This document shows positions 12,276-28,436 of a stretch of DNA of 64,000 nt, in pieces. Below the pieces are notes generated by a model. That model was not told where the DNA came from, made no database searches, and saw nothing but the letters and a program-made list of their open reading frames with translations. Position 1 is the stretch's first letter. Each line of letters starts with the position of its first letter. Source of the DNA: Flavobacterium sp. LHD-80 (GTDB taxonomy: Bacteria; Bacteroidota; Bacteroidia; Flavobacteriales; Flavobacteriaceae); contig NZ_JAVFVS010000001.1 of the NCBI RefSeq assembly GCF_030929605.1, positions 620,001-684,000 on the forward strand. The letters are read 5' to 3'. Made by a program: the position numbers and the translations under genes.

Positions 12276-15053
12276 TTGTCAGTACCTTTGAAGATAAAAC
12301 CGAATATCTTGAAATCGATACTTTTAAAACTAGTTTTCTTCTTTTTCATTGCTTCGCATCTACAAGCACAAGAATTACTTCCTTTTGTTGAAAATTATAA
12401 TAAATCAGATTATCAGGGCGATAATCAAATCTGGAACATTGCTCAAGGCCAGGATAGAGCCATGTATTTTGCTAATAATCATTATTTATTGCGATATGAT
12501 GGCGTTGTTTGGGAAAAATATTCTTTGCCCAATAAAACAATTATTCGATCCATATTAATTGAAGGTGACCGAATTTATTCTGGTTCTTACAAAGAATTTG
12601 GGTATTGGTATAGAAAAGATGGTAAAATGAATTACGTTTCTATCACCAAAAATCTGCGTTTGTTCGATGAAAAAGACAATGAAGAAATCTGGAAAATTTT
12701 CAGATTTAATGGTTCTCTCTATTTTCAGTCTTTCAATGATGTTTTTATTTATGATGGAAAACATATTAAAAAAATCAAATTCCCTTTTCTAATATCATAC
12801 TGTTTTGTTGTTGACCAAAATCTCTATGTAGCTTCTGTTGACAAAGGTATTTTTAGAATGAACGGCTCAAAAATTGCAAACCCGAAAGGTTGGAATATTC
12901 TAAAAAATACCGTTGTTCACGCGATCGAAAAGTACAATGGTAAAACCTATATTTTCACTCATAAACGCGGGATTTTTATTGTTGAAAAAAATGGATTGAC
13001 GGCTTGGAACAATCCGTTAAACGAAACTTTGAAAGGAACGGGAATTAATGTTGCAAAGTTTATCAAGAATAATAAATTGGTTATTGGAACAGGAAATAAA
13101 GGTGTTTTTGTTTATGATTTTAGTACTCAAACTTTTAAAAACATAGACCGAAATAATGTTTTAATGAACAATTCGGTTTTATGCATTGGTTTTGATAAAG
13201 AAGAAGATTTATGGCTCGGACTTGATAACGGACTTGCTCATGTTGAGGTAAATTCTCCAATTTCATTTTTTTATGACAATTCAGGGATTTTAGGTTCCGT
13301 TTACTCGGTCGCAACTATTGATAAAGGATATCTAATTGCATCAAATCATGGTATTTTTGAATTTGATTCGGGTAATTTTAAAATGTTGCCAAATACGCAA
13401 GGGCAGGGCTGGAATATTACTAAAATTGGCAATAAATATGTTATAGGTCATAACGACGGAACTTTCTGTTATGAAAATGGTGCTCTGACAAAAATTAATG
13501 ATGTCAGTGGAGGATGGAATTTATCAAAAAGTATTATTAATGATACGTACTTTCAATCCACTTATAGTGGTATTTTAGTTTATAACAACGCTTCAAATTT
13601 GGGTGAAAGTACAAAGTTTAATGATCTTTCAAAACCAATAAAATATGTTGCTCAAAACAAACGAAATGAAATTTGGGCAGCAGATAATTACCGCGGATTA
13701 TATAGAGTCCTTTTTGATGGCAATTTTAAAACGACAAAAGTTGAAAATATCACGCAGCAAAGTAAAATAGAAAATGACTTTGGCGTTAAGATTTTTGAGT
13801 TTAGAGAAGAGATTCTTTTTTTAATAAACAATGTTTGGTACACATTCAATTCAATTACAAATAAATTAGAAGAGAATGAATTGTTCAATACCAACTTTAA
13901 AAATATATCTGATGTTGTTGCAATCGATGAAAACCATTTTATAGTCCTTCAAGAAGGAATCTTGTACCATATTTACGCAAACGGAAATAAGTTTGTATGG
14001 AATATGATTCAGGAGAAATATTATAAAGGGAAATTAATTAATGAAAACCTGCGCATCTTTAAAAGCAAAAATCATTATTTAATGAATCTTGATGATGGTT
14101 TTATTTCGTTGCAACTTTCTTATGAAAACAAACAAAATAAAGGAGTAAAAGTTGAAGCGTATAGCAATAATATATTGTTGCCAAATGAAGGCAAAATAAA
14201 ACACAATACTGAATTACGTATTAACGTGATTTCCGGCATTTATGGAGCAAGCAAGCCAAATTTATTTTACAAGATAAATGGAAGTAAAAATTACATTCCA
14301 ATTTCTAATGGAACAATTGTCTTGAACAACCTAAACAGTGGTTTTCATTCTGTCGAAATTTTTAAGCACGACGGAGCCAATTATGATAATGTTGCAACAT
14401 TTGAATTCAAGGTTGCACAGCCTTGGTATTTTTCATTTTGGATGATTTTGCTTTACTTGTTAGTAGTTGGAGCCGTTTTATTCTTTTATTACAAATGGAA
14501 TAAGCTTCGATACACACAAAAATTAAAACTGCAGGCGGAAGAATTGAAACATCAGCGTGAAATTCTCGAAATGGAATTGAAGAAGGAGAATGAACTAAAC
14601 GTTCAGGAATACGAGAAGCATATTTTAGAATTGGAACTTCAGACAAAATCATCAGAAGTTGCAGGAAAATCATTGTCTATTGCCAAGCAAAGTGAAATGA
14701 TTGAGAATATTCAAAATATTCTGGATTCTGAAAAAGATTTTAATAAGCTCAAAAGCGAAATCAAAAAAGCAATTAAGATTAATGAAGTTAACAAACACGA
14801 ATGGGAGATTTTTGAAACAAATCTGAATCAAATCCACAATGAGTTTATTATTAATCTTTCGAAAAAATATCCAAACCTAACTCCAAAGGATATAAAGCTG
14901 TGTGTTTATCTAAAAATGAATCTTTCGTCAAAAGAAATTGCTCCTATGATGAATATCTCTTTTAGAGGTGTAGAATTACACAGATATCGCTTGAGAAAGA
15001 AGCTAAACCTGACACAAGATGAAAACCTATCAAAATTTTTATTAACTGTGTAA
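12276..15053 (+). CDS. Membrane-spanning PUL regulator (propeller, Y_Y_Y, LuxR-like HTH)
   Basis: This protein of about 925 aa has a signal-like N-terminus ending HLQAQ, then about 650 residues of two-component-regulator-propeller-type repeats (for example DLWLGLDNGLAHVEV and EIWAADNYRGLYRV). A Y_Y_Y-type domain precedes one membrane helix near residue 715-735. A long charged coiled coil and a C-terminal HTH follow (LTPKDIKLCVYLKMNLSSKEIA, then a recognition helix). There is no kinase or receiver domain, so it should sense glycan fragments in the periplasm and bind DNA directly, like SusR-type regulators. Only TTG starts are available. The TTG at 12309 gives a tighter signal peptide than 12276 and lies after a TACCTTTG box. 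It controls, by position, the downstream SusC/SusD operon. Confidence 0.88.
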   Translation: MSVPLKIKPNILKSILLKLVFFFFIASHLQAQELLPFVENYNKSDYQGDNQIWNIAQGQDRAMYFANNHYLLRYDGVVWEKYSLPNKTIIRSILIEGDRIYSGSYKEFGYWYRKDGKMNYVSITKNLRLFDEKDNEEIWKIFRFNGSLYFQSFNDVFIYDGKHIKKIKFPFLISYCFVVDQNLYVASVDKGIFRMNGSKIANPKGWNILKNTVVHAIEKYNGKTYIFTHKRGIFIVEKNGLTAWNNPLNETLKGTGINVAKFIKNNKLVIGTGNKGVFVYDFSTQTFKNIDRNNVLMNNSVLCIGFDKEEDLWLGLDNGLAHVEVNSPISFFYDNSGILGSVYSVATIDKGYLIASNHGIFEFDSGNFKMLPNTQGQGWNITKIGNKYVIGHNDGTFCYENGALTKINDVSGGWNLSKSIINDTYFQSTYSGILVYNNASNLGESTKFNDLSKPIKYVAQNKRNEIWAADNYRGLYRVLFDGNFKTTKVENITQQSKIENDFGVKIFEFREEILFLINNVWYTFNSITNKLEENELFNTNFKNISDVVAIDENHFIVLQEGILYHIYANGNKFVWNMIQEKYYKGKLINENLRIFKSKNHYLMNLDDGFISLQLSYENKQNKGVKVEAYSNNILLPNEGKIKHNTELRINVISGIYGASKPNLFYKINGSKNYIPISNGTIVLNNLNSGFHSVEIFKHDGANYDNVATFEFKVAQPWYFSFWMILLYLLVVGAVLFFYYKWNKLRYTQKLKLQAEELKHQREILEMELKKENELNVQEYEKHILELELQTKSSEVAGKSLSIAKQSEMIENIQNILDSEKDFNKLKSEIKKAIKINEVNKHEWEIFETNLNQIHNEFIINLSKKYPNLTPKDIKLCVYLKMNLSSKEIAPMMNISFRGVELHRYRLRKKLNLTQDENLSKFLLTV
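12283..12290 (+). promoter_or_regulatory. Possible -7 promoter box of the PUL regulator
   Basis: TACCTTTG fits the Bacteroidetes -7 consensus TAnnTTTG. No good TTTG is found at the expected -33 spacing. If real, transcription would begin near 12297 and favour the TTG at 12309 as the start codon. Confidence 0.35.
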
Positions 15054-15124
15054 GATTTGACATTGAATTTTAAAGATCTTATATTTTTTCAATCCTTTTT
15101 TTATATAATTCCAATACATCATTA

Positions 15125-15216
15125 CTACATCATAAGGTTATGTTAAAGAAAATAAATTAACATTTACAGTGTTGATTATTAGCGGTATACAAAAGGTTTT
15201 TAACATAATGATGTAG
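15125..15216. promoter_or_regulatory. Inverted repeat between regulator gene and susC
   Basis: CTACATCAT-AAGG-TTATGTTAAA at 15125-15147 is the near-exact reverse complement of TTTAACATAATGATGTAG at 15199-15216, apart from a bulge. Further half-sites GTAGTA and TACTAC follow at about 15221-15246. The region is the only intergenic space before susC and would suit an operator of the adjacent regulator; it could also fold as an attenuator. Confidence 0.45.
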
Positions 15217-15297
15217 CTATGTAGTAGTGTGAATTGATGTACTACAACGTTGTAATTGTTTAATTTGGCTCTACTAACTTAAACGATTACATACTGT

Positions 15298-18200
15298 ATG
15301 AAAAATTTTATTTTTAGCTTTTTAGCGCTATTGCTGCTTCCGGCTTATATGTCTGGACAAGCAATTAAAGGAAAAGTAGTAGACGGCAGCGGGATGGGAG
15401 TACCAGGAGCGGTTATCAGTGCTTCGAATTCCAGAACAACTGCTGATGCTGACTTCGACGGTAATTTTACAATCAATGCCAAAGAAGGTGAGATTTTAAA
15501 AATCTCAATGTTGGGTTTCGACGCTATTTCTGTACCAGCAACGTTAACTCCAATGCGAATCACCTTAAAAGAATCTGATGACACCGCTTTAAAAGAAGTT
15601 GTTGTAATTGGATACGGAACCAGAAAAAAGGTCGATAATACTACAGCAATTTCTTCAATCAAAGCAGAGGAAATTACAAAAACTAAAGTGATAAATGCTT
15701 CTCAGGCTATTCAAGGTAAAGCTGCTGGGGTACAAGTTACTTCTTCAGATTTGCCAGGAAGTACACCATCTGTTGTTATTAGAGGTCTAGGAACAGCTTT
15801 AGGAGGAAGAACACCTCTTTATATCGTTGACGGAATGGCAACGGAGAACATTAATAATATCAACACTAATGATATTACTTCGTATGACATTTTAAAAGAT
15901 GCATCTGCATTAGCGATCTATGGTACAAGAGCTGCAAATGGAGTTATCATTATTACTACTAAAAAAGGTAAAGGCGATAAAGTTTCTGTTGAATTTGAAA
16001 GCTTTGGAGGTATTAGAACACCGCTTAAAAAAGTAAAAATGGCTGGAAGTAATAAATTTGCATATTACACAAATTCAGCTTTACAGTCAACTACTTTTTC
16101 TCAAGATCAGCCTGTTAATACAGATTGGTTTGATGAGATTACTAGAACAGGAAGTTATACTCAAAATAACGTATCTGTTTCAGGAGCTACTGAAAGCATA
16201 AAATATTTCTTCAGTTTAGGAAACTATCAAGAAGATGCAATTTTAAATGGTCTTAATTACGGACGTACAACATTTAGAAATAATAATGAGTTCAAAATTT
16301 CAAAGAAATTAACTTTAACTCAAAATTTTAGTTTAACATCAACTAAATCTGCACCAAAACCGTTGTCAGCATTTACTAATGCGTACAAACAATCACCTAT
16401 TGTTCCTGTATTTTTTCCTGATGGAAAATATGGAGTTTCTCGTGTTGGAGATAATGGATTTGCAAGCGAAACAGGAAGTTCAATCAACAATGTTGGAAAC
16501 CCGGTTGCACAGTTAGATTTTTATGATGAGCAACAAAGAAGTGTTTTTTTACAAGGAGGTCTAAAATTAGATTATGAAATTTTGCCATCTTTAAAATTTA
16601 CTTCACAATATAACGGAGAATATTATACTTGGAAACAATATAACTTCGACGATACAAAAAATATCTGGTTAGCTGCAAACCCAAATAAGGTTGCTAGTGA
16701 TTATGAAAAAGAATTTCCTAATGCAAATATCAATTTATTGACAAAAGGAAGAGAAGATTATTACAATTGGAGTTTGTCAAACTACTTGACTTACAATAAA
16801 GTATTTAACGAAATTCACGATATCGAAGTTACTGCTGGTATTGAGACATATGTTAAAGGTGCAAGAGAAAAATTGACTATAAAAAGAAAGAATGTAAATT
16901 CTGATTCTAATTATTGGTCTTTAAAAGATGTTGAATATGCTACAAATGTAACTAGTTATAAAGACGAGCTTTTCAATGAAACTAAATTAGCATCATATTT
17001 AGGTCGTTTTCAATATAAATTGATGGACAGATACTTATTGACTGGAACAGTTAGACGTGATGGTTCTTCAAATTTTGGAAAAGATTATCGTTGGGGAACT
17101 TTCCCGGCTTTTGGAGCAGGATGGATTATTACTAAAGAAAAATTCATGGCTGATGTAAAAGGAATCAATTTATTGAAATTAAGAGGAAGCTGGGGTAAAT
17201 TAGGAAATCAGAATGTTCCACTTAACAGTCAAGGATATACTTCAGGTTTAAATGCTTATTTGGGAGGTTCTATTTTGAATGAAGGTACAACTATTAGTTC
17301 TCAAATTGATCCAAGTTTATCTTGGGAGATTACAGAAGAAGTATCTGCAGGTTTAGATTTTGAACTTTTAGACAGTAGATTAAAAGGAACTTTTGATGTG
17401 TATGATAAAAACACAAACAACGTAATTTTAAATACAAAACCTTATTTTACATCTGGAATTACAGCTGCATCGCCAGCACACGTAGGAGAAGTATCTAACA
17501 AAGGATATGAAATCTCATTACGTTGGGATGATAAAATTGGTGAAAATTTCAGCTACTATATTGGCGGTAACTTTTCAAACAACAAAAACGAGCTAACTGG
17601 TTTAAAAGATGTTGTTTTATCTCCAGTAATTGGCGGTGGTTTAGGAAATGGTCAGGATACAAAATTACTTGATAACACTACTGTGGGGCAACCATTAGGA
17701 AGTTTTTACATCTACGAATATGCTGGTTTTGATCCAGCAAATGGAAAAATGTTGTACTACAATGCAGCAGGAGATAAAGTAACTCAAGATGCTTTAAGTG
17801 CGACAGCTGATAAAAAATATGTAGGTTCTAGTTTGCCAAAATCTAACTACGGAGTTTCTTTAGGATTCGTTTACAAAAACTTTGATTTTTCTGTTGATGG
17901 ATATGGTACTGCGGGAGCAAAAGTTTACAATGGTAAAAAAGCACAACGATTTTTTGGTGAAAATATTGAAAACTCAATTGCTACAGATTTCTGGACACCA
18001 AATAATTTGACAGCTTCAAATCCGGCACCATTTAATCAAGTACCAGTTGCTTCTACTTATTACTTAGAGTCTGGTGATTTCTTTAGAGTAAACAACATTA
18101 CTGTAGGATACAAATTGCCATTGCAAGGAGACAGTTTTGTAAGCGCATGTAGAATCTATGTAAATGCTATTAATCCATTTATTACACAAAAATTCTCAGG

Positions 18201-18312
18201 ATTCTCTCCAGAGCTAAATGGTGATGGAAATCCTTACGGAACTCAGGGAGTAGAGCTGGATGCTTATCCAACTTTAAGATCATTTGTAATTGGTGCTAAT
18301 TTAAAATTTTAA
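15298..18312 (+). CDS. susC: SusC-family TonB-dependent outer-membrane glycan transporter
   Basis: This 1004-aa protein has the SusC/RagA plan: signal peptide ending MSGQ, a carboxypeptidase-regulatory-like domain (residues ~20-90), a TonB box-like EVVVIGYG near 100, a plug with GKAAGVQV and TPLYIVDGM, and a C-terminal beta barrel ending in VIGANLKF with the terminal Phe expected of barrels. It imports oligosaccharides through the outer membrane using TonB energy and works with the SusD lipoprotein encoded 4 bp downstream. Paired glycosidases to the right define the substrate. It has the normal length of the family. Confidence 0.96.
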   Translation: MKNFIFSFLALLLLPAYMSGQAIKGKVVDGSGMGVPGAVISASNSRTTADADFDGNFTINAKEGEILKISMLGFDAISVPATLTPMRITLKESDDTALKEVVVIGYGTRKKVDNTTAISSIKAEEITKTKVINASQAIQGKAAGVQVTSSDLPGSTPSVVIRGLGTALGGRTPLYIVDGMATENINNINTNDITSYDILKDASALAIYGTRAANGVIIITTKKGKGDKVSVEFESFGGIRTPLKKVKMAGSNKFAYYTNSALQSTTFSQDQPVNTDWFDEITRTGSYTQNNVSVSGATESIKYFFSLGNYQEDAILNGLNYGRTTFRNNNEFKISKKLTLTQNFSLTSTKSAPKPLSAFTNAYKQSPIVPVFFPDGKYGVSRVGDNGFASETGSSINNVGNPVAQLDFYDEQQRSVFLQGGLKLDYEILPSLKFTSQYNGEYYTWKQYNFDDTKNIWLAANPNKVASDYEKEFPNANINLLTKGREDYYNWSLSNYLTYNKVFNEIHDIEVTAGIETYVKGAREKLTIKRKNVNSDSNYWSLKDVEYATNVTSYKDELFNETKLASYLGRFQYKLMDRYLLTGTVRRDGSSNFGKDYRWGTFPAFGAGWIITKEKFMADVKGINLLKLRGSWGKLGNQNVPLNSQGYTSGLNAYLGGSILNEGTTISSQIDPSLSWEITEEVSAGLDFELLDSRLKGTFDVYDKNTNNVILNTKPYFTSGITAASPAHVGEVSNKGYEISLRWDDKIGENFSYYIGGNFSNNKNELTGLKDVVLSPVIGGGLGNGQDTKLLDNTTVGQPLGSFYIYEYAGFDPANGKMLYYNAAGDKVTQDALSATADKKYVGSSLPKSNYGVSLGFVYKNFDFSVDGYGTAGAKVYNGKKAQRFFGENIENSIATDFWTPNNLTASNPAPFNQVPVASTYYLESGDFFRVNNITVGYKLPLQGDSFVSACRIYVNAINPFITQKFSGFSPELNGDGNPYGTQGVELDAYPTLRSFVIGANLKF

Positions 18313-18316
18313 TAAG

Positions 18317-19771
18317 ATGAAAAAGATATATATAGCATCGTTTGTATTATCAGCGTTCTTTTTTACAGGATGTGCAGACGATTATTTAGACGTAGATCAA
18401 ACAGAATCTATTTCGACCGGCGATGTGGAGCTGTTTAATAATGATGCTGGTGCAGCTCAGTTTGTAACAGCAATTTATAACAAGTTTTTAAATTGGGATA
18501 TGACCTCTTTTGGGTGGATCGGTTTATCAAGTATTACATCTGATGATGCTGATAAAGGTTCTTCTGCAGGTGATACAGGAACGGATAAAGATGTATTAGA
18601 CGCTTTGACTTACAATGCTTCTAATCCTTCTGCAGAAAGCACATTTATTGCTAATTATGATGGAATCAATAGATGTAATCAGGCTTTAAATATGCTTCCT
18701 AAATTAGATAAAGTTGATGCTAATTTAAGAAACAGATTAGCAGGTGAAGCTAAGTTTATGAGAGCCTTTATGTATTTTACTTTAGTAAAATGTTACGGAG
18801 GTGTACCAATTGTTGATCATTTACCAGTTCCGGGTTCAGATGCAGATAGAATCATGCAGTTAACACGTAAATCGACAGCAGAAGTTTATGCTTTTATTGA
18901 AGCTGACTTAGATGATGCTATTGCAGCATTGCCTGAAAAAACGGCTTATTCAGCAAATGAAAAATCAAGAGTTTCGAAAGGTGCTGCTTATGCTTTATTA
19001 GCAAAAGTTAGTTTATACCAAAAGAAATGGCAGCAAGTAATTGACAATTGTAATAAAGTTACGGGTTATGCTATTGTAAGTGATTATGCATCACAGTATA
19101 AAGCGACAGGAAAGTTTGACTCTGAGTCTATTTTCGAAATCTATGCACAAGGGGCTGTACCTGCAAAAGGAATTGAAGGTTATTCTAATACGCAAGGTGC
19201 TCGTGGTACAGGAGGCTGGGGCTGGGGCTTTAATACGCCATCTCAAAGTTTAGTAAATGCTTACGAGGCTGGTGATGTTAGAAAAGCAGCAACAATCATC
19301 TTCAGAGGACAAACTTTATATGATGGTAGAGTAGTGCCAAATACAGTTGAAAACGAAAGATACAACTACAAAGCATATTCATCTGCCTATACAGATGCGT
19401 GGGAAACAGATGTTGATATTAAATATTTAAGATATGCTGAAGTTTTATTAATGAAAGCGGAAGCATCAAATGAATTAGGACAAACTTCTGCTGCGATTCT
19501 ATTATTGAATCAAATCAGAAACAGAGCTGGATTAGGAAATACAGCGGCAAGTTCTCAAGCTGATGTTAGAACTGCAATCTGGAAAGAAAGAAGAGTAGAA
19601 ATGGCTTTTGAGCATGACAGATTCTTTGATTTAGTTCGTACAGGTCAAGCTAAAGCTGCTTTTGCAGTTGATGGCAAAACTTTTACAGAAGGTAAAAATG
19701 AGTTATTCCCAATTCCGGCATCTTTCATTAAACAGGCTGGTGGTTTATCAGCTCAAAATCCTGGTTACTAA
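18317..19771 (+). CDS. susD: SusD/RagB-family glycan-binding lipoprotein
   Basis: This 484-aa protein begins with a lipoprotein signal ending FFTGC (Cys near 19) and has the helical SusD/RagB fold. Typical features are NAIYNKFLNWD, the TPR-like region ALLAKVSLYQKKWQQVIDNC and the C-terminal RYAEVLLMKAEASNELG, IRNRAGL and WKERRVEMAFEHDRFFDLVR. SusD sits on the lid of SusC and captures oligosaccharide before transport. Only four bases separate it from susC, so translation is coupled. The LamG lipoprotein follows 19 bp later in the same operon. Confidence 0.96.
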   Translation: MKKIYIASFVLSAFFFTGCADDYLDVDQTESISTGDVELFNNDAGAAQFVTAIYNKFLNWDMTSFGWIGLSSITSDDADKGSSAGDTGTDKDVLDALTYNASNPSAESTFIANYDGINRCNQALNMLPKLDKVDANLRNRLAGEAKFMRAFMYFTLVKCYGGVPIVDHLPVPGSDADRIMQLTRKSTAEVYAFIEADLDDAIAALPEKTAYSANEKSRVSKGAAYALLAKVSLYQKKWQQVIDNCNKVTGYAIVSDYASQYKATGKFDSESIFEIYAQGAVPAKGIEGYSNTQGARGTGGWGWGFNTPSQSLVNAYEAGDVRKAATIIFRGQTLYDGRVVPNTVENERYNYKAYSSAYTDAWETDVDIKYLRYAEVLLMKAEASNELGQTSAAILLLNQIRNRAGLGNTAASSQADVRTAIWKERRVEMAFEHDRFFDLVRTGQAKAAFAVDGKTFTEGKNELFPIPASFIKQAGGLSAQNPGY

Positions 19772-19790
19772 TCCTTAAAAACTAATTAAA

Positions 19791-20768
19791 ATGAAAAAAA
19801 ATAAATCTATTTTATTACTTTCTTTTGCTTTGGCTTCGCAAATTTTTGTAAGCTGTGAGGATAGTATAGATAAAGTTAACAGTCCAATTCCATACGAGTC
19901 AATTGGCGGTTACGAGAATTCTGATGATATCGCACCAACACATTTAGTCTCTAAATTCAGTTTTGATGGTAATTTAAATGACAGTAAAAGCAATATTACT
20001 GGTCTTGAAGGTACAAATGTTGCTTATGCTAATGGTGTAAAAGGAAATGCTTATCAAGGTTCAAGCTCCGTTGCTCGATATGCTATAGGAAATGCTACTT
20101 CAAAAATTACATCTTTAAATGATTACTCGATTTCATTTTGGATGAATACTGCTAACACAGTTCCTGATGGTGGAAGTCCAGGGCAAGGAAAAGGAGCACA
20201 AGGTATTTTTTCAATTGTCAGACCAATGGAATTTTGGGGAGGAATTAATTTGTTTTTAGAAAACCCAGATAGTGCCAATCCAAATAGATTAAGATTAAAA
20301 CTTGGAGTTGAAAACGGAAGAGCCGGAGTAGCATGGAGAGGGCAAAGTGTGATTGTAAACCTTGACAATAGCTTAAATACTTGGTTGCATATTGTTCTTG
20401 CATATGATTCAAAAACTAGTACTATGAATTGTTATACTAATGGTGTAAAAAGTGCTAATGTTGGCGGTTTTCCATTTGCTCCTGCGAACGGTGTTGTTGG
20501 TACAGCTATATGGTATGCTGACGATCCAGGAACTTATGACAATGTTAAAAATGCTCCTAAGTATGGCACTTTTCAAATGGTAGGAACCAATGGTAAAGTT
20601 GTTTTTGGAAACCATCAGTTTGAAACAACACCTCCATTAAATAATGGTTCTCAACAAGATTGGGCAACTAGTTATGCAGGATTGATGGATGAATTCAGGA
20701 TTTATGACGCAGCGCTTTCAAGTAATGAAGTTTCTGCTCTTTATAAATTAGAAAAAGATAAGAGATAA
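19791..20768 (+). CDS. LamG-like surface glycan-binding lipoprotein
   Basis: This 325-aa protein has a lipoprotein signal ending FVSCEDS followed by a short tether and one concanavalin-like (LamG/pentraxin) domain of about 260 residues. The domain shows KFSFDGNLNDSKSN, YSISFWMNTAN, WLHIVLAYDSKT and the closing AGLMDEFRIYDAALSSNEV, all typical of LamG-like lectin domains. No catalytic residues are evident. Its place directly after susD matches the position of surface glycan-binding proteins in many PULs, so I infer it helps hold the substrate glycan on the cell surface. A terminator follows, and the hydrolases begin after it. Confidence 0.88.
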   Translation: MKKNKSILLLSFALASQIFVSCEDSIDKVNSPIPYESIGGYENSDDIAPTHLVSKFSFDGNLNDSKSNITGLEGTNVAYANGVKGNAYQGSSSVARYAIGNATSKITSLNDYSISFWMNTANTVPDGGSPGQGKGAQGIFSIVRPMEFWGGINLFLENPDSANPNRLRLKLGVENGRAGVAWRGQSVIVNLDNSLNTWLHIVLAYDSKTSTMNCYTNGVKSANVGGFPFAPANGVVGTAIWYADDPGTYDNVKNAPKYGTFQMVGTNGKVVFGNHQFETTPPLNNGSQQDWATSYAGLMDEFRIYDAALSSNEVSALYKLEKDKR

Positions 20769-20780
20769 AATTTTTATGAA

Positions 20781-20814
20781 TACACCTAGAGTAATTATCT
20801 AGGTGTATTTTTTA
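20781..20814 (+). terminator. Terminator-like hairpin after the LamG gene
   Basis: TACACCTAGA pairs perfectly with TCTAGGTGTA over the loop GTAATTA and runs into a T tract. It may reduce, rather than end, transcription into the downstream hydrolases. Confidence 0.75.
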
Positions 20815-20840
20815 GTAATTCTTAATAAGAAATTGATATA

Positions 20841-22229
20841 ATGAAGATAGGTTTATATATTATAATGTTTTTGGGAGCTGTGACTTCTTGTTCTTCTTCT
20901 ACACCAAATGAAGGTAATAGTGGAGGAACTCCGTTGCCAACAAATCCAACAACTCCAACAAAAACTTTGACTGATACCGAAGCAATGGATCAGGTTCAAA
21001 AAGATGCAATAAAATATTTTTGGGATTATGCTGATCCTAATTCAAAATTGGCAAGAGAAAGATATCTTACAGAAGATCCTAGTTTTGAGTCTAATATTAT
21101 AACTACGGGAGGTTCTGGGTTTGGATTAATGAGTATCGTTGTAGGCGTAGAAAGAGGTTTTTTGCCAAGAGCTGAAGCTGTTTCTAGACTTACTACGGCA
21201 TTAACTTTCCTAGAAAATGCTGATCGTTTTCACGGTGCATGGCCACATTGGATGGACAATAAAGCGGGAAAAGTTATACCATTTGGAACAAAAGACAATG
21301 GTGGAGATTTAGTTGAAACTTCTTTCGTTTGTCAAGCTTTAATCACGATTAGAGAATATTTTAAAAACGGAAGCACTTCTGAAAAAGCATTAGCTACTAA
21401 AGCTGATGAACTTTGGAAAGGTGTTGAATGGGATTGGTATACAAAAGGAGAAAATGCTCTGTATTGGCACTGGTCACCAAATTATGGCTGGGAAATGAAC
21501 TTCAAATTGGAAGGCTACAATGAATGTTTAATTACGTATGTAATGGCAGCTTCATCTCCAACACATCCAATTTCTGCAGAAGCTTATCATCAAGCTTGGG
21601 CTAGAAATGGCGCTATTGTAAACGGAGGATCTCAATATGGAATTCCGGTTGTTTTAAGTTATAACGGAGCAGTAGGAAATGTTGGTCCAATGTTCTGGTC
21701 ACATTATTCTTATTTAGGTTTAGATCCAACTACATTAAAAGATAAATACGCAGATTATTGGCAGTTAACGCAGAATCATGCTAAAATCATGGTTCAATAT
21801 AGTATTGCTAACCCAAAAGGATTTAAGGATTATTCAGATAAATGCTGGGGATTAACAGCAAGTTATACACGAAATCCTGATGGAACAACTGGTTATACAG
21901 CACATCAGCCAAATAATGACAACGGAGTTATTTCTCCAACAGCCGCTTTATCATCGTTTCCTTATGCGCCAACTGAAGCAATGAAGTTTTTGCATTATTT
22001 ATATGATGATAATAGAGCAAAACTTGTTGGAATTGCAGGACCTTATGACGCATTTTCGCCTCAATACAATTGGGTAACGGCTCGTTATTTAGCAATCGAT
22101 CAAGGGACTATTGCACCAATGATTGAAAACTACCGTAGCGGTTTGTTATGGAGTTTGTTTATGAATGCATCAGATACAAAACAAGGTTTGAAAAAACTTG
22201 GTTTTACATCAGGTAAATACGGAATTTAA
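20841..22229 (+). CDS. GH144-type endo-beta-1,2-glucanase candidate (glucoamylase-family protein)
   Basis: This 462-aa lipoprotein has a signal ending VTSC and a Thr/Pro-rich linker up to about residue 40. It is followed by an (alpha/alpha)6-barrel domain of the 'Glycoamylase' Pfam type. Recognisable segments are DAIKYFWDYADP, the glycine-rich TGGSGFGLMSIVVGVERGF, the DRFHGAWPHWMD region, NGGDLVETSFVCQAL and NYGWEMNFKLEGYNECL. Bacteroidetes members are called putative glucoamylases, but the characterised GH144 enzymes hydrolyse beta-1,2-glucan. The GH3 gene two positions downstream supports that reading. The lipidated N-terminus suggests action at the outer membrane or in the periplasm, cutting long glucan to sophoro-oligosaccharides. 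The GH144 assignment is from memory of family features. Confidence 0.78.
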   Translation: MKIGLYIIMFLGAVTSCSSSTPNEGNSGGTPLPTNPTTPTKTLTDTEAMDQVQKDAIKYFWDYADPNSKLARERYLTEDPSFESNIITTGGSGFGLMSIVVGVERGFLPRAEAVSRLTTALTFLENADRFHGAWPHWMDNKAGKVIPFGTKDNGGDLVETSFVCQALITIREYFKNGSTSEKALATKADELWKGVEWDWYTKGENALYWHWSPNYGWEMNFKLEGYNECLITYVMAASSPTHPISAEAYHQAWARNGAIVNGGSQYGIPVVLSYNGAVGNVGPMFWSHYSYLGLDPTTLKDKYADYWQLTQNHAKIMVQYSIANPKGFKDYSDKCWGLTASYTRNPDGTTGYTAHQPNNDNGVISPTAALSSFPYAPTEAMKFLHYLYDDNRAKLVGIAGPYDAFSPQYNWVTARYLAIDQGTIAPMIENYRSGLLWSLFMNASDTKQGLKKLGFTSGKYGI

Positions 22230-22239
22230 TTACATCTAA

Positions 22240-22953
22240 ATGAAATTTAAAGTAACGCTTCTAATTGTATTATTTTCGGTATTTGGTTTTTCCCAAACCG
22301 AAACAACAGGTAAAATCAATACAATTGTAATGTCAAAGTATGAACTTGGTTATGCTTTGTACAAGCCACTAAATACTAAGGGAAAGAAGCCTTTAATAGT
22401 TTTTATTTCAGGAGATGGAGAAAAAGGAACTGATATTTCAAAAGTAAAAATTCACGGTCCTTTTAATTATTTAAAAACACATCAATTAGATGCCTATGTT
22501 TTGGCTCCGCAATGCAAAGAAGATGAAAATTGGGATATAGAATCAATTTATCAGCTGATCTTAAAAATTCAGAAAGAAAACAAAATTGATTCAGACAGAA
22601 TATATGTAACAGGTTTAAGTTCTGGCGGATGGGCCACTTGGAATTTAGCGCTTTCCTATCCAGATATGTTTGCAGCGGTCGTGCCTATTGCCGGCTTTGT
22701 AGATTTGATTCCGTTAGAAGGTGCTTGTAAAATTGCTAATATTCCCACCAGAATTTTTCACGGTTTATTAGACGATGTAGTAAATGTTGATTATGCGATT
22801 ACCATTTACAAAGAATTAAAAAAATGCAATGCAAAAGATGTAAAGCTTACCATTTTTGATGACGCTGGACATAATAGCTGGACGCGAGTTTATGATAATC
22901 ACGAAATCTACGACTGGATGTTGCAGCAGAAAAAAATGAATACAAACAAATAA
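22240..22953 (+). CDS. Secreted alpha/beta hydrolase (esterase-like)
   Basis: This 237-aa protein has a signal peptide ending FGFSQ and an alpha/beta-hydrolase fold of the PHB-depolymerase/prolyl-oligopeptidase type. The nucleophile elbow is GLSSGGW (Ser near residue 127), the acid is probably the Asp in LLDDVVNVD and the base is His in AGHNSW. It starts 11 bp after the GH144 gene and ends 11 bp before the GH3 gene, so it belongs to the glycan operon. In that place an esterase that removes acyl groups such as succinyl or acetyl from the glucan is the most useful reading, though a peptidase or lactonase cannot be excluded. Confidence 0.82.
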   Translation: MKFKVTLLIVLFSVFGFSQTETTGKINTIVMSKYELGYALYKPLNTKGKKPLIVFISGDGEKGTDISKVKIHGPFNYLKTHQLDAYVLAPQCKEDENWDIESIYQLILKIQKENKIDSDRIYVTGLSSGGWATWNLALSYPDMFAAVVPIAGFVDLIPLEGACKIANIPTRIFHGLLDDVVNVDYAITIYKELKKCNAKDVKLTIFDDAGHNSWTRVYDNHEIYDWMLQQKKMNTNK

Positions 22954-22963
22954 ATAAATTATA

Positions 22964-25264
22964 ATGAAAAACAAATTAGTCTTACTTTTTTTAGGATGTG
23001 CTGTTTTGGGTTATGCTCAAAAAAAGAGCACAAAAAGTACAGTGAAAATTAAACCTAAGTCAGAGTTTGTGGCAGAGTTAATGTCAAAAATGACATTAGA
23101 AGAAAAATTAGGACAGTTGAATTTACCAACATCTGGTGATATTACAACTGGTCAGGCAAATAGTTCAAATGTTGCAAAAAATATTGCTGAAGGTAAAGTA
23201 GGCGGTTTGTTCAATATTAAATCAGTACAAAAAATTAAAGAAGTACAGAAAATTGCTGTTGAAAAAAGCCGTTTAAGAATTCCTTTGCTTTTTGGTATGG
23301 ACGTTATTCACGGTTACGAAACAACATTCCCAATTCCGTTAGGATTATCTTGTACTTGGGATATGGCTTTAATTGAAAGAAGCGCCCAAATTGCTGCTAA
23401 AGAAGCAAGTGCTGACGGAATCAACTGGACGTTTTCTCCAATGGTTGATATTTCTCGTGATCCACGTTGGGGAAGAGTTTCTGAAGGTTCTGGAGAAGAC
23501 CCTTATTTAGGAAGCCAAATTGCAAAAGCAATGGTTAACGGATATCAGCAACATGATCTTTCAAAAAACAGTTCAATTTTAGCTTGTGTGAAACACTTCG
23601 CATTGTATGGTGCGCCAGAAGCTGGACGTGATTACAACACAGTTGACATGAGTCATATCAGAATGTTCAATGACTATTTCCCTCCTTACAAAGCAGCGGT
23701 TGATGCTGGAGTAGGTTCAGTTATGGCATCTTTTAATGAAATTGATGGAATTCCAGCAACTGGAAACAAATGGTTAATGACAGATGTTTTAAGAAAGCAA
23801 TGGGGTTTTAAAGGTTTCGTAGTAACCGATTTTACAGGAATTCCTGAAATGATCGAGCACGGAATGGGAAATCTTCAAGATGTTTCGGCTTTGGCTTTGA
23901 ATGCTGGTGTTGAAATGGATATGGTTGGTGAAGGTTTCTTAGGAACTTTGAAAAAATCATTAGACGAAAAAAGAGTTTCTATCGAAACGATTGACAATGC
24001 TGTTAAACTTATTTTGGAAGCAAAATATGATTTAGGATTGTTCCAAGATCCATACAAATATTGTGATGAAAAAAGAGCGAAAACTGAAATCTTCACAATG
24101 GATAGCAGAAAGGAAGCACGTCAAATTGCAGCTCAATCATTGGTTTTACTAAAAAATAAAAACCAATTATTGCCTCTTAAAAAATCAGGAACAATTGGTT
24201 TAATTGGACCATTGGCAGATGCTAAAGAAAATATGCCGGGAACTTGGAGTGTGGCTACTAAAATGGAAAATGCTGTTTCATTATTAGCAGGAATTAAAGA
24301 AGTTGCTGGAGCAGGAACAAAAGTTTTATATGCAAAAGGAAGTAATTTAGATTACGATGAAACTTTTGAAACGAACGCAACAATGTTTGGAAAAACATTA
24401 CACCGTGACGGTCGTTCAAAAGAAGAATTATTGGCAGAAGCTTTAAAAGTGGCTGAACAATCTGATGTTATTGTTGCGGCTTTAGGAGAATCAGCAGAAA
24501 TGAGTGGAGAATCTAGCAGCCGTACAAATTTGCAGATTCCACAAGCGCAAAAAGACCTATTAAATGCTTTATTAAAAACAGGAAAACCAGTTGTTGTTGT
24601 TTTATTTGACGGACGTCCATTAGTTATTACTGATGAAGAAAAAACAGTTCCTGCGATCTTAAATGCTTGGTTTGCTGGTACAGAAGCAGGTTATGCAATC
24701 GCTGATGTTTTATTTGGAGATGTAAATCCTTCTGGAAAATTAACTTCTACTTTTCCAAGAAGTGTAGGTCAATTACCAATTTATTATGCGCACAAAAATA
24801 CAGGAAGACCGCTTTCTAATACAGAAGGTAAATTCGAAAAATTCAGATCAAATTATATTGACGAAAGAAACGAGCCATTATTCCCATTCGGATTTGGTTT
24901 AAGCTACACGACTTTTGATTATTCAAACCTTAAAATTTCTTCTGATAAAATGAATTTCAGCGGAAAATTAAAAGTAACAGTTGATGTAACAAATACAGGA
25001 AACTTTGACGGAAAAGAAACAGTTCAATTATACATCAGAGATTTAGTTGGTTCAGTAACTAGACCAGTTAGAGAATTGAAAGGTTTCCAAAAAATAGCAC
25101 TTAAAAAAGGTGAAAAACAAACAGTTAGTTTTGACATTACTGTTGAAGATTTAAAATTTTATAACTCTGATTTGCAATTCGCAGCAGAGCCTGGACAGTT
25201 TGATATTTTCGTTGGAGGAAATTCAGCTGCCGACAAGAAAGTTAGTTTCGAGTTAACTAAATAG
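22964..25264 (+). CDS. bglX: GH3 beta-glucosidase (BglX-like)
   Basis: This 766-aa exported protein has a signal peptide ending GYAQ and the full GH3 plan. The N-terminal TIM barrel includes MDVIHGYETTFPIPLG, FSPMVDISRDPRWGR, VKHFALYGAPEAGRDYN and the nucleophile segment FVVTDFTG. The alpha/beta sandwich domain holds AALGESAEMSGESSSR, and the C-terminal fibronectin-like domain starts with LFPFGFGLSYT. It should release glucose from the non-reducing end of oligosaccharides in the periplasm. Next to a GH144 gene, beta-1,2-linked substrates are likely, although many BglX enzymes are broader. A terminator follows 21 bp after the stop. Confidence 0.95.
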   Translation: MKNKLVLLFLGCAVLGYAQKKSTKSTVKIKPKSEFVAELMSKMTLEEKLGQLNLPTSGDITTGQANSSNVAKNIAEGKVGGLFNIKSVQKIKEVQKIAVEKSRLRIPLLFGMDVIHGYETTFPIPLGLSCTWDMALIERSAQIAAKEASADGINWTFSPMVDISRDPRWGRVSEGSGEDPYLGSQIAKAMVNGYQQHDLSKNSSILACVKHFALYGAPEAGRDYNTVDMSHIRMFNDYFPPYKAAVDAGVGSVMASFNEIDGIPATGNKWLMTDVLRKQWGFKGFVVTDFTGIPEMIEHGMGNLQDVSALALNAGVEMDMVGEGFLGTLKKSLDEKRVSIETIDNAVKLILEAKYDLGLFQDPYKYCDEKRAKTEIFTMDSRKEARQIAAQSLVLLKNKNQLLPLKKSGTIGLIGPLADAKENMPGTWSVATKMENAVSLLAGIKEVAGAGTKVLYAKGSNLDYDETFETNATMFGKTLHRDGRSKEELLAEALKVAEQSDVIVAALGESAEMSGESSSRTNLQIPQAQKDLLNALLKTGKPVVVVLFDGRPLVITDEEKTVPAILNAWFAGTEAGYAIADVLFGDVNPSGKLTSTFPRSVGQLPIYYAHKNTGRPLSNTEGKFEKFRSNYIDERNEPLFPFGFGLSYTTFDYSNLKISSDKMNFSGKLKVTVDVTNTGNFDGKETVQLYIRDLVGSVTRPVRELKGFQKIALKKGEKQTVSFDITVEDLKFYNSDLQFAAEPGQFDIFVGGNSAADKKVSFELTK

Positions 25265-25285
25265 TTGGTTTATTGGTTAGTTAAG

Positions 25286-25311
25286 AGCCCTTCATATGGA
25301 GGGCTTTTTTT
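25286..25311 (+). terminator. Terminator of the glycan operon
   Basis: AGCCCT pairs with AGGGCT over TTCATATGG-type loop bases and is followed by seven T. It lies 21 bp after bglX and ends the first hydrolase transcript. Confidence 0.8.
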
Positions 25312-25345
25312 CTAAAATAAAGATTCTCTTTTTAAAATTTCATCT

Positions 25346-26128
25346 ATGAATATTCTCAAAATATCTCGCGTTCTTTCTTTAATGTTAGTAGCGGTTTTCG
25401 CTTCCTGCAATGTGCAGAAAAATGCAATTGTAGCGCACAGAGGAGCGTGGAAGAAAAATAGTTTTCCTGAAAATTCGATTGCTTCTTTAAGACATGCCAT
25501 TGATTTAAAATTGCCGGGATCAGAATTTGACGTTTGGCGTACAGCCGATGATTCACTGGTAATTAATCACGATGCACATTTTAATAAATTGTTGATCGAG
25601 CAAACCAATTATTCCGATTTGATAAAGTTTAAATTATCTAACGGAGAAAAGCTCCCAACGCTTTATGAATATATTGCAGAAGGAATAAAAAACAATAAAC
25701 ACACGCTGTTGGTTTGCGAAATTAAACCTTCAGAAATAAGCAAAGAACGAGGAAAAGAAACGGCTATAAAAACGGTTGAAACAATCAAAAAACTAAAAGC
25801 AGATAAAAAGATTTGTTATATAAGTTTTGACTACGATATTCTAAAGCAAATTAGAGCAATAGATTCAAAAACAAATCTTCAATACCTGGAAGGAAATAAA
25901 TCTCCAATTGAAGTTAAAGCCGATAAAATTAATGGTGTTGATTATCATTACTCGGTTTTCAAAAAACATCCTGACTGGATAAAAGAAGCAAAGGACATCA
26001 AAATTATTTTGAATGCTTGGACCGTAAATGAAGCTACTGATATGGATTGGCTTATTGATCAAAAATTCGATTATATCACTACAAATGAACCTGAACTTTT
26101 AAAGGAAAGATTAAACATAAAAAAGTAA
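25346..26128 (+). CDS. Lipoprotein glycerophosphodiester phosphodiesterase
   Basis: This 260-aa protein has a lipoprotein signal ending VFASC and a GDPD TIM barrel. The catalytic landmarks are present: AHRGAWKKNSFPENS with the first His-Arg pair, the metal-binding Glu and Asp in GSEFDVW, and the second His in INHDAHF. A later Glu lies in LLVCEIKP. Such enzymes release sn-glycerol 3-phosphate from glycerophosphodiesters. Being outside the cytoplasm and between GH3 and GH43-like genes, it may remove phosphoglycerol groups from imported glycans, or simply scavenge glycerophosphodiesters. The start at 25346 is the ATG nearest the signal peptide. Confidence 0.9.
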   Translation: MNILKISRVLSLMLVAVFASCNVQKNAIVAHRGAWKKNSFPENSIASLRHAIDLKLPGSEFDVWRTADDSLVINHDAHFNKLLIEQTNYSDLIKFKLSNGEKLPTLYEYIAEGIKNNKHTLLVCEIKPSEISKERGKETAIKTVETIKKLKADKKICYISFDYDILKQIRAIDSKTNLQYLEGNKSPIEVKADKINGVDYHYSVFKKHPDWIKEAKDIKIILNAWTVNEATDMDWLIDQKFDYITTNEPELLKERLNIKK

Positions 26129-26159
26129 TCGTTTTTCCTTTACAAATACAAACCAAATC

Positions 26160-28085
26160 ATGAAAAAAATATATAAACAACTGAGATTGCCAGTCGTATT
26201 GTTTTTGATCGTTTTCAATAACAGTATTTTGGCTCAAAATGCAAGTGGAAAAACAGAATGGTTTGACCCTGCTAAACCTGCAACGACTTATTGTAATCCT
26301 ATTAATATTGGCTACAATTTCACGACTTACAATCATAACGGAATTCCGTATTCACGCCGTTCAAGTGCCGATCCGGTAATTATTACTTATAAAGGCGAAT
26401 ATTATTTGTTTGCTACAAATCAAGCAGGTTTCTTTTGGAGTAAAGACATGTCAAATTGGAATTTCGTTTACGGAAGCTTTCAAAGACAACCGGGCGATGA
26501 CGACCAGTGTGCACCAGCTGCGTGGGTGGTAAATGATACTTTATTTTACGTTGGTTCTACTTGGAAAAGAGATCATCCAATCTGGAAAACGGCTGATCCA
26601 AAATCAGGGAGATGGACACGCCACGTTGATAAAGCAATGCTGCCAACTTGGGATCCAGCAATCTTTCAAGATGATGACAAAAAAGTATATATGTATTATG
26701 GATCAAGCGGAAAATTACCTCTTGTCGGTGTAGAAGTAGATTATAATACGTGGCTTCCAAAAGGAAATCAAGCCGATTATGCGACGTTGTATAAAGCAAC
26801 AGAAGTAGAAGACATCCAGAAACCTTACGGGCAAATTAAAGACGTTGCAATTCTAGATCCATCAGCTCATGGATGGGAGCGTTTTGGTCCAAATAATGAT
26901 ATGGAGCCAGCGCCTTGGGGAAATTTCATTGAAGGAGCTTGGATGACCAAACATAACGGAAAATATTATATGCAATATGGCGCGCCAGCAACCGAATTTA
27001 AAGGTTATGCAAATGGCGTTCATGTTGCTGATAATCCGTTAGGGCCTTTTAAGTATCAAAAACACAATCCGATGTCGTACAAACCTGGCGGATTTGTAAT
27101 TGGAGCGGGACACGGAAATACTTTTGCAGATAATTATGGAAATTATTGGAATACTGGAACATGCAAAATCTCAATTAAAGACCGTTTTGAACGTCGTATT
27201 GATATGTTTCCTGCTGGATTTGATAAAGATGACGTAATGTATTCTATTACAGCTTACGGAGACTTTCCAATCGTCCTTCCAACTGGCGAGCGCGATCAGA
27301 CAAAAGGTGCTTCATCTGGATGGATGTTGCTTTCGTACAAAAAGCCTGTAACAGTTTCTTCATTTGAAGAATGCATGGAAGTAGAAACACACAGAATGGA
27401 CAACGGAGGCAAAAAAGTCTATGAGAAATTTTGTTACGGAGCAGAAAACCTTACCGATGAAAATATCCAAACGTATTGGTCTGCTAAAACAAGTAATCCT
27501 GGTGAATGGCTTCAACTCGATTTGGGCAGAAAAATGGAAATAAAGGCGCTACAGATCAATTATGCTGATCATAAAGCCACACAGTACAATAAAGCAATGG
27601 ATATTTATTATCAATACAAAATATTCATGTCTGATGATGCTGTAAACTGGACTTTGGTTGTCGATAAATCTAAAAATGATAAAGATGTGCCTCATGATTA
27701 TGTAGAGCTTACAAAATCAATTAAAGCGCGTTACATCAAAATGGAAAACATTCATAATGCATCTGGATTGTTTGCGATTTCTGATTTCAGAGTTTTTGGA
27801 AATGGATTGGCAGAAAAACCGAAAGCTGTTGCTTCATTTAAAGTAGACAGAAATAAAACAGATTCAAGAAATGCAATGATTTCGTGGAAAAAACAAAATG
27901 ATGCCGTTGGATACAATATTTATTACGGAATTGCTCCTGATAAATTGTACAACAGTATTATGGTTTATGGCGAGAATTCATATGATTTTAGAGGACTGGA
28001 TAAAGGAACAAAATATTATTTCACAATTGAACCTTTTAATGAAAACGGCATTGGAGCAAGAAATAAGCTTATTGAAGTAAAATAA
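26160..28085 (+). CDS. GH43-like glycosidase with F5/8C and FN3 domains
   Basis: This 641-aa exported protein has a signal ending ILAQ, then a five-bladed propeller domain (residues ~40-390) of the GH43 type. The likely general base Asp lies in RRSSADPVI, the second Asp in LPTWDPAIFQDDD, and the general acid Glu in FIEGAWMTKHNGKYY. A discoidin (F5/8 type C, CBM32-like) domain follows (~410-555, with ENIQTYWSAKTSNPGEWLQLDLG). A fibronectin type III domain ends the protein. GH43 enzymes usually cleave arabinosides or xylosides, yet members with this layout have varied targets. It follows the GDPD gene by 31 bp and could act on a side chain of the same glycan. Confidence 0.87.
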   Translation: MKKIYKQLRLPVVLFLIVFNNSILAQNASGKTEWFDPAKPATTYCNPINIGYNFTTYNHNGIPYSRRSSADPVIITYKGEYYLFATNQAGFFWSKDMSNWNFVYGSFQRQPGDDDQCAPAAWVVNDTLFYVGSTWKRDHPIWKTADPKSGRWTRHVDKAMLPTWDPAIFQDDDKKVYMYYGSSGKLPLVGVEVDYNTWLPKGNQADYATLYKATEVEDIQKPYGQIKDVAILDPSAHGWERFGPNNDMEPAPWGNFIEGAWMTKHNGKYYMQYGAPATEFKGYANGVHVADNPLGPFKYQKHNPMSYKPGGFVIGAGHGNTFADNYGNYWNTGTCKISIKDRFERRIDMFPAGFDKDDVMYSITAYGDFPIVLPTGERDQTKGASSGWMLLSYKKPVTVSSFEECMEVETHRMDNGGKKVYEKFCYGAENLTDENIQTYWSAKTSNPGEWLQLDLGRKMEIKALQINYADHKATQYNKAMDIYYQYKIFMSDDAVNWTLVVDKSKNDKDVPHDYVELTKSIKARYIKMENIHNASGLFAISDFRVFGNGLAEKPKAVASFKVDRNKTDSRNAMISWKKQNDAVGYNIYYGIAPDKLYNSIMVYGENSYDFRGLDKGTKYYFTIEPFNENGIGARNKLIEVK

Positions 28086-28220: not shown

Positions 28221-28436
28221 TTAAGCTTTAAAATCTTGCAGATTTTAAGTCTGTTGACCAAACCTATGAACTTCAAGTTTGCAATGGTTTAGTTTATTAA
28301 AAATCATAAAGACTCTGATTATAAATTTAAGGATTTGTAATTGGAGTTTTTTTTTGCGAAAAGGTTGCGAAAAAACTCTGACAGATGTAAAGAATTTTGT
28401 TCCTTTGTGATAACCCAAAAAAATGCTATAAAAACT

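Follow-up and report, generated by a model that had tools for sequence, protein, structure and literature searches.

Gene content of the locus

The window, a stretch of 64,000 nucleotides from the 4.96 Mb genome of Flavobacterium sp. LHD-80, holds between positions 12276 and 28085 a run of open reading frames (ORFs) that all lie on the + strand with short gaps between them. Pfam and NCBIfam profiles agreed with the ORF list of the window in revealing a SusC/SusD pair, glycan enzymes and a regulator on one strand, so the strand-consistent PUL described in an earlier note on this DNA is indeed present; the regulator, which lies inside the same span, was left unnamed there. The GH144 C-terminal parts of loci from the same genus match those of named Flavobacterium records, among them F. 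limi, F. stagni and F. aquariorum, without a difference, which places the DNA in Flavobacterium. The nine genes follow each other in the order regulator, SusC, SusD, LamG, GH144, alpha/beta hydrolase, GH3, glycerophosphodiesterase (GDPD) and GH43, and upstream of them lies, by our reading, an acetate kinase gene. The features are as follows.

12276..15053, + strand: regulator with a C-terminal LuxR-type HTH (PF00196 GerE at 868-916)
15298..18312, + strand: SusC-like TonB-dependent transporter (TIGR04056, 714 bits)
18317..19771, + strand: predicted SusD-like surface glycan-binding lipoprotein (PF07980, PF14322)
19791..20768, + strand: LamG-domain lipoprotein, likely a surface glycan binder (PF13385 Laminin_G_3)
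20841..22229, + strand: GH144 protein of the endo-beta-1,2-glucanase type with a lipoprotein-like signal (PF10091 'Glycoamylase', 253 bits; 525 bits to 5gzk)
22240..22953, + strand: exported alpha/beta hydrolase, candidate esterase (PF00326/PF02230)
22964..25264, + strand: predicted GH3 beta-glucosidase (NF011678 BglX, 954 bits; 1,090 bits to 5xxl)
25346..26128, + strand: exported GDPD, which sets this locus variant apart (PF03009, 87 bits; 258 bits to 7wwc)
26160..28085, + strand: GH43-like protein with F5/8 type C and fn3 domains (PF04616)
28341..29828, + strand: M28 peptidase, downstream neighbour of the PUL (PF04389)

The regulator appears SusR-like on reading, with one membrane helix and a long extracytoplasmic part. 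The M28 peptidase gene is found in 41 of the 78 Flavobacterium GH144 loci described below. Protein locations were read by eye from the N-termini: SusD and LamG (the latter with its lipid cysteine at position 22) carry acidic residues after the cysteine, as in surface lipoproteins, GH144 and GDPD have lipoprotein-like N-termini without a strong acidic signal, and ordinary signal peptides are seen on the esterase, GH3 and GH43. From these signals we infer import by SusC and removal of substituent groups in the periplasm.

Backbone enzymes

In the PDB the GH144 protein matches the C. pinensis endo-beta-1,2-glucanase CpSGL (5gzh) and its partner entry 5gzk (E about 1e-156; 524 and 525 bits, respectively), with an alignment that spans residues 34-457 of 462. 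The window protein shares with CpSGL the family, a near full-length match and the key acidic residues: in the printed alignment D152, D156, E159 and E228 correspond to D135, D139, E142 and E211 of CpSGL, which are discussed in PMC12102758. All four were invariant in 280/280 aligned proteins, short or low-scoring ORFs having been excluded before this and every other residue count. The GH3 protein scored 1,090 bits against 5xxl, a B. thetaiotaomicron beta-glucosidase that we take to be BT_3567; slightly higher scores went to two chains of JMB19063, to 5tf0 and to 9urf, with 3u48 likewise slightly above 5xxl, and 6r5i followed below (747 bits). Its D289 was invariant in 130/130 aligned proteins; the catalytic roles of this residue and of the invariant esterase, GDPD and GH43 residues given below are presumed from knowledge of the families. 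With these relatives and key residues, beta-1,2-glucan, the backbone proposed in the earlier note, is well supported as the predicted target of the GH144/GH3 pair.

Spread of GH144 loci

At an E limit of 1e-60, at which 'without GH144' means no match, GH144 was found in 105 of 397 family genomes and 189 of 398 Flavobacterium genomes. Neighbourhoods were taken from 60 of the 105 and 60 of the 189 genomes by match score and identity spread, a non-random choice in which two of the first 60 were Flavobacterium, and 80 further named loci were added as the best 80 of 520 confirmed. Dropping nine loci with identical GH144 C-terminal parts reduced the 200 to 191, each covering up to 10 kb on either side, some cut by contig ends.

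Quantification of the 78 Flavobacterium loci revealed the regulator, SusC, SusD and GH3 in 78/78 each, the esterase in 56, GH43 in 66, LamG in 39, GH97 in 31, GDPD in 27, a gene of the exonuclease/phosphatase family (EEP) in 4 and a sulfatase in 1. Of the 97 other loci, 70 have an esterase from the same group or a related one, 52 a sulfatase, 80 a GH144 pair, 48 GH43, 17 GH2, 17 EEP, 11 a calcineurin-like phosphoesterase and 1 GDPD. The earlier note had suggested looking for its gene set in other genomes; the gene order of the locus recurs in many of them, and the arrangement is thus more than chance. The smallest version is that of the Chryseobacterium group, in which SusC, SusD, GH144, the esterase and GH3 are present in 16/16 loci, GH43 in one, and GDPD and sulfatase in 0/16. 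The single GDPD locus outside named Flavobacterium (L241, Flavobacteriaceae) has the Flavobacterium-type gene order. One locus of the 191, L212 in a Flavobacterium MAG, carries both GDPD and a sulfatase.

GDPD is tied to the GH144 locus

GDPDs are recognised by the motif HR, E-x-D, H, E-x-K. The window protein matches the PF03009 profile and has the full set of motif residues, H31, R32, E60, D62, H75, E125 and K127, which were invariant in 29/29 aligned proteins. By reading, its N-terminus is lipoprotein-like with cysteine 21 (absent in one of nine aligned GDPDs), in agreement with the export proposed earlier. Its predicted structure was poor (pLDDT 59), and an sn-1/sn-3 reading of the pocket was dropped for this reason.

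We found a GDPD ortholog in 79/398 Flavobacterium genomes (at least 397 bits, 71-100% identity; the next match had 357 bits). All but one of these (78/79) also have GH144, and of the 209 genomes with no GH144 match one, 62% complete, has the ortholog (Fisher p about 8e-29, kinship ignored). In all 47 genomes for which the place of GH144 was listed (it was not for the other 31 of the 78), GDPD and GH144 share a contig and lie 3.2-4.7 kb apart. The gene directly follows GH3 in 28/28 loci and is followed by GH43 in 27/28, the remaining locus being cut by a contig end. GDPD is thus genetically tied to the GH144 locus in the genus Flavobacterium. It is also accessory, since 111 of the 189 GH144-containing Flavobacterium genomes are without the ortholog, and its 6 changes on a tree of the regulator (80 rows, quick method) point to repeated gain or loss. 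Two further GDPD genes lie elsewhere in the host genome.

Relatives of the GDPD are joined to glucanases

A search of 299 family genomes yielded 23 further members of the GDPD subfamily (L185-L207), one of them a paralog in the host. Ten of the 23 are fused to a GH16 domain (L185, L187, L191, L194-L197, L199, L201 and L203) and three adjoin a GH16 gene; L186 precedes a GH2 gene, L200 precedes an EEP gene, and eight have no SusD, GH16, GH2 or glucanase within their 1.5-kb flanks. Pfam confirmed the fusions in L185 and L194, the adjacent GH16 in L188 and L192, the upstream SusD in L195, two GH2 and two EEP genes, and the remaining neighbour and fusion calls were made by reading of the sequences. 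The GH16 fusions and neighbours indicate that this type of GDPD has repeatedly been joined to beta-glucan breakdown. In other Flavobacteriaceae the fusions sometimes have a SusD gene directly upstream and an EEP gene downstream; they represent another type of GDPD-bearing glucan PUL.

The best solved relative of the window GDPD is a Pedobacter terrae protein deposited as beta-1,3(4)-glucanase (7wwc/7ww4; 258 bits), listed without an accompanying publication in the excerpt of PMC12448869. Residues 22-255 of the GDPD align with the first 233 residues of this enzyme, which thus has an N-terminal GDPD-like part joined to a beta-1,3(4)-glucanase, whereas the window GDPD is a separate gene in a GH144 locus.

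Esterase, GH43 and other accessory genes

The candidate esterase residues S127, D178, D179 and H211 were invariant in 78/78 aligned proteins. The gene occurs in 24/27 Flavobacterium loci with GDPD and in 32/51 without (Fisher p 0.018, kinship ignored) and is a general companion of the locus, present also where GDPD is absent. We also considered the esterase and GDPD as one evolutionary unit; independent pairs on the regulator tree showed no trend, and the case is weak.

The acidic triad of GH43 (D71, D165, E258) was invariant in 111/111 aligned proteins. Its predicted model (pLDDT 75) has the five-bladed GH43 fold with Z about 21 to GH43 entries, and the fold search singled out no subfamily, 50 listed GH43-type entries lying within 2.5 Z units. 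We know of no role for GH43 on phosphoglycerol- or succinyl-bearing beta-1,2-glucans.

GH97 occurs in 31 Flavobacterium GH144 loci without GDPD (e.g., L177:13736-15820). The L177 protein resembles alpha-glucosidases like SusB (8wg0, 817 bits; the alpha-galactosidase 3a24 scores 212), and such an enzyme could cleave the alpha-1,6 linkage in beta-1,2-glucans that are alpha-cyclised, as described in PMC11842490. GH97 is present in 0/27 loci with GDPD versus 31/51 without. A functional mutual exclusion of the two genes is only suggestive: the labels follow the regulator tree, on which GH97 shows 13 changes, and six independent pairs gave 1-3 in the opposite direction and 0 in the same, a number at which significance is unreachable. 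None of the 191 loci combines any two of GDPD (28 loci), EEP (21) and the calcineurin-like phosphoesterase gene (11). GDPD and EEP are nonetheless not alternatives in general, because outside GH144 loci they adjoin, EEP standing directly after GDPD in L185 and L200. The 97 non-Flavobacterium loci include BD-FAE-type esterases in 37, calcineurin-like phosphoesterases in 11 and EEP genes in 17 (e.g., L042, L061, L093).

Source of the glucan and its substituents

Beta-1,2-glucan is known from the periplasmic and cyclic glucans of Proteobacteria. PF10091 would match a cyclic glucan synthase as well as GH144, and the only PF10091 gene of the host is the GH144 gene of the PUL; a search for MdoG/OpgG gave no match in the host genome and one in the control, E. 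coli. Since the host has neither opgG nor a second PF10091 gene, the glucan probably comes from other organisms, as had been proposed, and turnover of a glucan of the host's own is unlikely.

Cyclic beta-1,2-glucans may carry phosphoglycerol, succinyl or malonyl groups (PMC11071196), which bears out the chemistry given in the earlier note for the first two, and the substituents sit at C6 of glucose (PMC5072146). Osmoregulated periplasmic glucans (OPG) of E. coli bear phosphoethanolamine, succinyl and phosphoglycerol, the last derived from phosphatidylglycerol (PMC3818809), and succinyl is the most widely distributed OPG substituent (PMC4726272). The Bacillus subtilis enzyme GlpQ belongs to the GDPD family and has active-site residues of the same kinds. 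Its substrates are teichoic acid and lipid head groups, of which it strictly requires the sn-glycerol-3-phosphoryl form; GDPDs accept a broad range of alcohol moieties (PMC7086022). By contrast, phosphatidylglycerol has an sn-1 head group (PMC7086022), and the phosphoglycerol of Agrobacterium cyclic glucans is sn-1 too, going by a reference title in PMC5072146; the substituent expected for the window GDPD is therefore sn-1. If the GDPD is active on glucan, its stereospecificity must differ from that of GlpQ, and this mismatch is the sharpest test of the phosphoglycerol idea. The statement that the esterase and the GDPD remove exactly the succinyl and phosphoglycerol groups thus went too far, given GlpQ's sn-3 preference against the sn-1 substituent and the esterase in 32/51 loci without GDPD.

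Proposed function and alternatives

Judging from its genes, this is probably a cluster for eating foreign beta-1,2-glucans. In the reading that we favour, at a probability of roughly one half, the Flavobacterium PUL binds, imports and degrades the beta-1,2-glucans of other bacteria, stripping ester and glycerophosphoryl groups in the process. The glucan would be bound at the surface by SusD and LamG, cut by GH144 and imported by SusC. In the periplasm the alpha/beta hydrolase would then take off ester groups, most likely succinyl, and the GDPD glycerophosphoryl groups, a plausible step, after which GH3 would free glucose from the bared chain and GH43 may act on a further substituent. Against this explanation, GH43 is without a place in a beta-1,2-glucan model, the GDPD is accessory, GlpQ-type GDPDs are sn-3-specific when the reported substituent is sn-1, and 8/23 relatives lack a glucanase or SusD nearby.

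Alternatively, the target may be, in place of a periplasmic glucan, a heteropolysaccharide from a capsule, an exopolysaccharide or an algal glycan. It would have stretches of beta-1,2-linked glucose, branches of other sugars for GH43, esters and sn-3 glycerol phosphate; a normal GDPD could remove the last, which would take away the stereochemical difficulty (PMC7086022). GH43 in 66/78 Flavobacterium and 48/97 other loci, together with GH2 in 17/97 and sulfatase in 52/97 of the latter, is consistent with such a target, as are the unknown marine polysaccharide inferred for PULs with GH144 and sulfatase (Lapebie et al., 2019; PMC6499787) and the B. xylanisolvens GH35 encoded beside a GH144 gene, which is a beta-1,2-galactosidase (PMC11739564). 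However, the smallest locus (SusCD, GH144, esterase and GH3 in 16/16 Chryseobacterium-group loci) is without GH43 in 15/16, indicating that the core needs only glucan enzymes, and we regard a heteropolysaccharide as somewhat unlikely. Still less likely in our judgement is that the GDPD shares only the regulation of the PUL and acts on free glycerophosphodiesters from the lipid head groups of lysed cells. Its complete canonical active site, the breadth of GDPDs for the alcohol part (PMC7086022) and the eight of 23 subfamily members without SusD, GH16 or GH2 in their 1.5-kb flanks fit such a role, but the one slot kept in 28/28 loci, the company of GH144 in 78/79 genomes, the 13/23 relatives fused to or beside GH16 and the host's two other GDPD genes argue against it.

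The favoured reading, degradation of decorated foreign beta-1,2-glucan, can be extended tentatively, to a proposal that we think doubtful as a whole: that the GDPD subfamily is a dedicated sn-1-specific glucan phosphoglycerol hydrolase, opposite to GlpQ, and that GH144 PULs share one core to which interchangeable decoration kits are added. GDPD would then answer to phosphoglycerol, GH97 to the single alpha-1,6 linkage in alpha-cyclised beta-1,2-glucans, the sulfatase to the decoration in marine relatives, and other phosphoesterases would serve elsewhere. Were it true, the kit would reveal on which neighbours' periplasmic glucans a strain feeds.

Relation to known loci

GH144 PULs are abundant, and marine ones carry a sulfatase (PMC6499787), as in a Maribacter cluster with GH3, two GH144, susCD and sulfatase (PMC8072126). 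The PULs of Bacteroidetes, including the marine variant, have SusCD, GH144, GH3 and an inferred beta-1,2-glucan target in common with the window locus, which differs from them in its one GH144, the GDPD after GH3 and the lack of a sulfatase; the excerpts of these two descriptions do not mention a GDPD. Among the matches listed in the open-licence literature, and in the excerpts they gave, we found no published PUL with a GDPD and no occurrence of GDPD together with GH16, laminarin or SusD; nor did these matches include a paper on a PUL enzyme removing phosphoglycerol or succinyl from beta-1,2-glucan. The earlier claim that no described PUL pairs these functions hence needs dividing: GH144 PULs themselves are known and abundant, and the pairing with GDPD, which was not found in print, looks to be the new element. 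The two substituents on bacterial beta-1,2-glucans are chemically well known (PMC11071196). A locus linking GDPD to beta-1,2-glucan breakdown offers named enzyme candidates for testing, may supply tools with which to analyse glucans, and could give Flavobacterium a way to recycle envelope sugars of Proteobacteria.

Exchange and decay of single genes

Seven loci (L035, L137-L139, L160, L162 and L164) have SusC and SusD distant from those of the window (about 460-490 and 200-230 bits, against the usual 1,800-2,100 and 800-1,000), while their regulator and enzymes stay close, which points to an exchange of the uptake pair. In L140 and L236 the esterase gene is broken into two ORFs, and the GDPD match at G706:C1:4122655-4123335 contains a stop codon; both are cases of decay of single accessory genes.
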